A stretch of DNA of 64,000 bases. Origin: Gammaproteobacteria bacterium. GTDB taxonomy: Bacteria; Pseudomonadota; Gammaproteobacteria; Ga0077536. The DNA lies in assembly GCA_016209015.1 (NCBI GenBank), contig JACQWY010000006.1, positions 62,001 through 126,000 on the forward strand, read 5' to 3'. Of the stretch, positions 2,165 through 2,324 are shown piece after piece. Position 1 is the first letter of the stretch, and each line of letters opens with the position of its first letter. The notes beneath the pieces were generated by a model. It saw only the letters and a program-made list of their open reading frames with translations, was not told the DNA's origin and did no database searches. Position numbers and translations under genes: made by a program.

Positions 2165-2324
2165 CTAGGGAAGCTCTGAATAAGTCCATCCTGGACTTTT
2201 CAGAGCACGGTCGGCAAGAAGCGTGGTTCTTACCGACCTTACGTGAACAATGGCTTACGCCACTGTTCGCGGCGGCACGTCCATGTGCCGCAGGAAGCTC
2301 TGAACTTGTTCAGAGCTTCCCTAG
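2165..2324. repeat. 160-bp MITE/REP-like element made of five consecutive hairpins
   Basis: Perfect 16-bp terminal inverted repeats (2165-2180 and 2309-2324, beginning CTAGGGAAGCTC) bound a non-coding segment that folds into five back-to-back stem-loops. H1 is 2173-2206 (15 pairs, one bulged base). H2 is 2209-2238 (11 pairs, one mismatch). H3 is 2245-2268 (9 pairs, one mismatch). H4 is 2272-2291 (7 pairs). H5 is 2293-2320 (13 perfect pairs, 2-nt loop). The arms of H1 and H5 share the sequence GCTCTGAA. The AT content is higher than in flanking genes. It has no transposase, so a non-autonomous element is the simplest reading. It fills most of the 255-bp gap before the next gene. Confidence 0.85.

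Follow-up and report, generated by a model that had tools for sequence, protein, structure and literature searches.

A miniature transposon with a conserved five-hairpin interior and candidate CsrA/RsmA-binding loops in Gammaproteobacteria

The five-hairpin element and its setting

Near the start of the window, which is the whole 64,000-nucleotide stretch of DNA that was analysed, a 152-bp non-coding element was found at positions 2169-2320. A CTAG direct repeat stands on either side of it, making 2165-2324 in total. The element lies in an intergenic spacer, and a porin-like open reading frame (ORF) starts at 2370, in agreement with the first-pass annotation, which had placed a porin gene 45 bp beyond 2324. 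No sigma-70-like promoter was found in 2090-2420. The features of the locus are as follows.

2165-2168, no strand: left target duplication, CTAG, 4 bp, of the YTAR type; a direct repeat at both ends
2169-2320, plus strand: five-hairpin MITE, 152 bp; dozens of copies in the genome and covariance-model matches of 149-156 nt in many other genomes
2169-2184, plus strand: left terminal inverted repeat (TIR), GGAAGCTCTGAATAAG; IS5-group-like by comparison with the ends of IS5 and of IS5-like elements in genomes G008, G148, G284 and G326
2173-2206, minus strand: hairpin H1, 14 pairs and one bulged T; the minus-strand loop, 2188-2192, is AGGAT
2209-2238, minus strand: hairpin H2, 11 Watson-Crick pairs and one C.A mismatch; minus-strand loop YCRCRY
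2242-2271, minus strand: hairpin H3, 12 pairs with one mismatch
2272-2291, minus strand: hairpin H4, 7 pairs; minus-strand hexaloop ATGGAC (2279-2284) with C-G closing, which fits ANGGAX
2293-2320, no strand: hairpin H5, 12 pairs; includes the right TIR
2305-2320, minus strand: right TIR, GGAAGCTCTGAACAAG
2321-2324, no strand: right target duplication, CTAG

Five adjacent hairpins had been described in 2165-2324 from the letters alone, and both the sequence and its folding bear this out. The 16-bp perfect TIR described with them was resolved into a 12-bp perfect TIR, GGAAGCTCTGAA, and the palindromic CTAG duplication; if one mismatch is allowed, the TIR itself reaches 16 bp, GGAAGCTCTGAAYAAG. 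The outer CTAG was assigned as a target duplication because other copies have CTAA, TTAG or TTAA in its place, directly repeated on both sides. Folding of RNA and DNA was computed, as the first-pass annotation had proposed, and was far more stable than that of shuffled sequences on either strand. The plus-strand RNA fold of 2165-2324 had an energy of -95.3 kcal/mol (z = -12.5), the DNA fold had z = -11.8, and 0 of 200 shuffles folded equally well. The minus-strand RNA had z = -13.3.

Copies, ends and mobilisation

The element's own genome (G000; 5.7 Mb in 65 contigs) gave 72 matching stretches in a BLAST-type search, about 42 of them long. Pattern scans of G000 allowing up to two mismatches found the TIR 16-mer 206 times, compared with 2 matches for the reversed control, the H4-H5 junction 82 times (control, 1) and a segment of the H1 loop and arm 87 times (control, 0). 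A direct 4-bp repeat, mostly YTAR, flanked 26 of the 34 full-length copies that could be delimited in G000, 11 of 14 in G008 and 11 of 16 in G039. Multiple copies and target-site duplications, two things that the first-pass annotation had named as worth looking for, are thus present both here and in relatives. The element has the properties of a MITE (a non-autonomous DNA transposon), being short, non-coding, multicopy and dispersed, with TIRs and target duplications, and it is almost certainly one. The earlier suggestion of a non-autonomous transposon whose ends are themselves hairpins therefore held, supported by the dispersed copies, the target duplications and the IS5-group elements with similar ends in relatives. 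Tandem dimers or arrays sharing one terminal repeat were also seen (L122, L150, L387), as were internal duplications at hairpins (L022, L024, L117, L119, L149). A second repeat family, around AATCGGACGT...ACGTCCGATTACGCC, lies beside copies L117, L120, L131, L169, L213 and L222, and another, GTGTCCCCGAAA...TTAATTC, beside L122 and L151.

The ends point to the IS5 group. They resemble those of Escherichia coli IS5 (GGAAGGTGCGAAYAAG), with 13 of 16 TIR positions identical by inspection, and YTAR is described as the IS5 target motif (PMC10359306). The element and IS5 (transposase InsH), like IS5-group MITEs, share the TIR pattern GGAAG-T-YGAAYAAG, the YTAR duplication and the expected mobilisation in trans; both a YTAR target and an IS5-like TIR, the marks of the IS5 group, are present. 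In contrast, no counterpart of the five conserved hairpins was seen in IS5.

In G000, no match to the DDE_Tnp_1 domain was found, nor any InsH homologue or IS5-type transposase at E<=0.001. G008, which belongs to the same family, has two IS5-type elements with similar ends, flanked by the duplications TTAG (L234) and CTAA (L235), and the transposase frame of one of the two is broken. InsH homologues were found in 9 of 20 further element-bearing genomes and in none of the other 11, and 12 loci from 9 genomes were inspected for transposon ends. G284 has IS5-group elements at L409 and L416 with duplications CTAG and CTAA and the TIR GGAAACGCTGA, and its local MITE ends read GGAA[AG]CGCTGA. IS5-group elements in G148 (L410) and G326 (L401) are flanked by TTAA and ATAA duplications, respectively. 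The ends of these elements resemble those of the local MITEs, with the CGCTGA variant in common in G284 and TCTGA types in G148 and G326. An end pair in G105 was flanked by TAAG and a second G284 element by CAAG, and no matched end pair was found for G033, G349, G332 and G173. The four transposases tested (L234, L401, L409, L403) all contain DDE_Tnp_1 and DUF772 domains, as does InsH. As candidates for the parent transposase with the same ends that the first-pass annotation had pointed to, there are IS5-group elements with similar ends in G008, G148, G284 and G326, and none was found in G000. Mobilisation in trans by an IS5-group transposase is the simplest reading, since the relatives' IS5-group elements have similar ends and YTAR-like duplications, and the source in G000 would be missing or lost. 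One further element of about 209 bp (L111, G032:C59:3958-4166) has an IS5-like TIR, GGAAGCTCTGAACAAGTC, and a CTAG duplication, apparently without the five hairpins; it is apparently an ordinary MITE with the ends of the five-hairpin element.

The ends are not the same everywhere. G033 and G186, which represent two genera, retain the five-hairpin core with an unrelated TIR, GAGGSTGTCGCAAAA, at its ends. Unlike IS5, these copies are flanked by 5-bp direct repeats that are not YTAR (TCGAA, GACAA, CTTGA, TCTTA, AATCA; TTTGA). No transposase enclosed by paired GAGGSTGTCGCAAAA ends was found in G033 or G186, and the ORFs beside single GAGGSTGTCGCAAAA ends encode methyltransferases and others. The ends of the element can be exchanged while the core stays.

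Many copies in G000 lack exactly one TIR, with the break falling at a constant position within the terminal hairpin. All 12 right-truncated copies are on the contig plus strand and all 8 clean left-truncated copies on the minus strand (L030, L143, L145, L153, L154, L158, L165, L168, L171, L177, L212, L214; L023, L028, L042, L071, L116, L134, L137, L222), in a count made from the listings that excludes tandem dimers, internal duplications, contig ends and diverged copies. Five one-ended copies seen in G008 follow the same strand rule. A product of one-ended transposition was rejected as the explanation since the missing end is always the contig-downstream one. Biology cannot know the orientation of a contig and, therefore, an assembly or gap-closing artefact is indicated, and any count of truncated MITEs in G000 and G008 would be distorted by it.

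Conservation of the hairpins

Conservation of the hairpins was assessed in an alignment of 62 copies from three genomes (A1), made with MAFFT from sequence only and excluding internally duplicated copies. In A1, 92% of the cells pair and 27 of the 57 pairs have two-sided changes, with a covariation score of 0.253 compared with 0.116 after shuffling and at most 0.105 in slid controls. The minimum-energy fold of the free single strand also joins the two ends of the element, and this end-to-end pairing showed no covariation (0.033 vs 0.031). Evolution maintains only the local hairpins, not the end-to-end pairing.

Two partly overlapping genome samples were searched with a covariance model. In the sample from the class, the element was found in 71 of 369 genomes (53 of 272 genera); in that from the phylum, it was found in 44 of 398, and 41 of these 44 lie outside the class. 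The matches were mostly full-length, at about 150 nt (149-156), with several copies per genome. In a separate scan of genome contigs, the named carriers among the matches listed were gammaproteobacterial metagenome-assembled genomes (MAGs), one MAG each of Thiotrichales and Pseudomonadales, and the Olavius algarvensis Gamma 3 endosymbiont. With the divergent copy L242 as query, no match was found in plasmid or phage collections.

A second alignment (A4) comprises 60 matches from 59 loci chosen out of a larger set, some of them sharing a genome or genus. Two-sided changes were seen in 51 of its 57 pairs (H1, 14/14; H2, 10/12; H3, 12/12; H5, 10/12), and the covariation score was 0.509 compared with 0.118 for shuffled and at most 0.087 for slid controls. 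A1 is the safer test because the fit of A4 to the model structure biases it towards pairing. Most stem cells of A4 are Watson-Crick (3060 of 3289). The five-hairpin plan is kept through massive compensatory change, and the hairpins are very likely conserved for a function. The first-pass annotation had remarked on more structure than a simple MITE would call for; it was right, and this proved to be the main point. The ends mark the element as a MITE, but its interior is structured and conserved and behaves as the inherited unit. No description of it was found in the open-licence literature. Thiomargarita MITEs are likewise abundant in a gammaproteobacterium; as described in PMC4853749, they are set apart by a 10-bp direct repeat with a 19-bp TIR, or by TATAG repeats.

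GGA loops and the basis of hairpin conservation

Loops were counted in 59 copies, the 60 A4 matches minus a second copy from L032. On the minus strand, GGA occurs in the loop of H1 in 58 of the 59, of H4 in 57 and of both in 56, compared with 0 for H2, 2 for H3 and 2 for H5. On the plus strand, GGA was found in 30 of the 59 H1 windows, where it belongs to the stem flanking the loop, and in 2 H4 windows. The minus-strand H4 loop is an A-N-GGA-N hexaloop closed by C-G, and CANGGANG is present in 53 of 59 copies. Its columns (n = 59) are C56, A59, N (G27, T21, C10, A1), G56, G59, A59, N (T39, C14, G3, A3) and G59, and the loop stays constant although the underlying stem varies between lineages. 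The H2 loop (2221-2226) is conserved too, as AA-Y-C-R-C-R-Y-TT on the minus strand, and CsrA binding does not account for it.

A high-affinity RsmE/CsrA site is described as the hexaloop ANGGAX directly atop a stem (PMC4005645), which is the form that H4 takes. GGA hairpins are generally paired because CsrA is dimeric, and CsrA binding was proposed on similar grounds for the TwoAYGGAY RNA (RF01731) and the reverse complement of Bacillaceae-1 (RF01690) (PMC4333381). These RNAs, along with CsrB/RsmZ-type sRNAs, resemble the element in their hairpin pairs and GGA loops. TwoAYGGAY and Bacillaceae-1 differ in that they are not presented as transposons in the account given in PMC4333381, and their Rfam models miss the element. 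A CsrA gene was present in 8 of 8 element-bearing genomes tested, which is weak evidence because CsrA is common in these bacteria. Going by loop form and pairing, H1 and H4 look like candidate docking sites for CsrA/RsmA. That such binding is the reason for the conservation of the hairpins is plausible, if somewhat short of probable.

In the Rfam search, neither the window copy nor any of 20 other loci (15 in G000, 3 in G008 and 2 in G039) yielded a family at its gathering score; in 20 loci of other genomes, the search gave a single unrelated match far below the cut-off. The nearest likeness was the gyrA RNA motif of Pseudomonas (RF01740), which matches minus-strand H1 and H2 of the window copy end to end (2157-2244) at 43.1 bits, below the gathering score of 45. 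RF01740 had no gathering matches in the same 20 loci of G000, G008 and G039, and none at E<=0.1 in the 20 loci of other genomes. Identity with the gyrA RNA was rejected since the match is sub-threshold and does not recur elsewhere, and the likeness is probably convergent.

The explanation that we consider probable overall is that the element is an IS5-moved MITE carrying a structured unit that is under element-level selection and yields a CsrA/RsmA-binding minus-strand RNA. An IS5-group DDE transposase would move the element in trans and insert it at YTAR, a step for which the anatomy argues strongly. The cargo would be the conserved five-hairpin unit rather than what a random deletion left of an insertion sequence. 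Selection on the element, as opposed to the host genes at each site, would keep the five local hairpins and the loop sequence despite the exchange of ends. The likeliest reason for this would be a minus-strand transcript, arising by read-through from neighbouring genes, whose H4 and H1 loops may bind a CsrA/RsmA dimer. Binding of this kind could shield or mask the transcript, or it could titrate CsrA, so that insertions would be tolerable or expression of the mobilising transposase would be helped. Three results weigh against an RNA role, namely that no promoter-like site, no orientation bias to adjoining ORFs and no robust wobble asymmetry were found. Read-through at part of the insertions might be enough for an effect at the level of the element.

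Another possible explanation, which we think unlikely, is that the element is a simple MITE derived from IS5, with functionless hairpins that stay perfect because template-switch (quasipalindrome) correction acts on them as the DNA replicates. The outcome would look like compensatory change, and the overwhelmingly Watson-Crick stems and the internal duplications at hairpins are in keeping with it. However, the correction works on arms and not on loops, and the A, GGA and G of H4 are constant in 56-59 of 59 copies, while the N positions vary freely, and the GGA of H1 is constant in 58 of 59. Moreover, the length, number and order of the hairpins are constant in scores of genomes, and mismatches and bulges persist at fixed places.

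An equally small chance is given to a role of the hairpins as DNA, in which single-stranded or cruciform forms would be recognised by a transposase or host protein (in replication, the nucleoid or ssDNA-type transposition), as in REPIN/RAYT systems. The strong DNA folding, the roughly equal folding of both strands as RNA and the mostly Watson-Crick stems fit a DNA-level process, and there is no orientation preference. Nor is there a robust wobble asymmetry between the strands, as would be expected of an RNA. Wobble totals lean to a minus-strand RNA (92 A.C vs 42 G.T cells in A4; 105 vs 70 in an earlier count) and are even when counted once per column (36 vs 35). The asymmetry was set aside as not robust because most of the excess lies in three pairs, which also deprives a per-copy sign test (37 vs 7) of independence. 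The target duplications and the likeness of the ends to IS5 point instead to a double-strand DDE reaction, and the GGA loops have the CsrA format on one strand only.

A REP/BIME or a REPIN moved by a RAYT (HUH) transposase is very unlikely. Like REPINs and BIMEs, the element is small, palindromic, non-autonomous, mostly intergenic and abundant, and compensatory changes have been reported for REPINs as well (PMC3116915), but it differs in its 4-bp target duplications, its IS5-similar, DDE-type TIRs and its five ordered hairpins in place of an inverted doublet. The composite REP cluster that the first-pass annotation had offered as an option is likewise not supported, the unit being a single 149-156-nt element with TIRs and target duplications that is full-length in scores of genomes. 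Its other option, a structured leader of the downstream porin gene, suits the intergenic position 45 bp before the porin ORF and is the least probable of all, given dozens of copies elsewhere that adjoin unrelated sequence, an intact CTAG target duplication, GGA loops on the strand opposite to the porin and copies that show no bias in orientation relative to adjacent ORFs (11 vs 5 in G000, p = 0.21; 26 vs 26 in other genomes, with crude ORF calls), the last of which likewise gives no hint that the element serves as a sense leader.

Bacterial MITEs are usually viewed as passive deletion remnants of insertion sequences. The IS5-moved, structured element favoured here has an interior structure that is more conserved than its ends, across genera of the class and in genomes of the same phylum outside it, and its ends are swappable. 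We tentatively suggest that it could belong to a phylum-wide lineage of miniature transposons with a structured-RNA cargo and a conserved pair of CsrA/RsmA hairpins, in which the scaffold is older than the ends and has been re-ended for different transposases. The selected replicator would then be the RNA structure, and the element would be the bacterial counterpart of a SINE with a protein-binding RNA as its load. Should CsrA/RsmA bind the GGA loops, dozens of copies in a genome would amount to dozens of mobile binding sites of a global regulator, and transposon load would be tied to post-transcriptional control.
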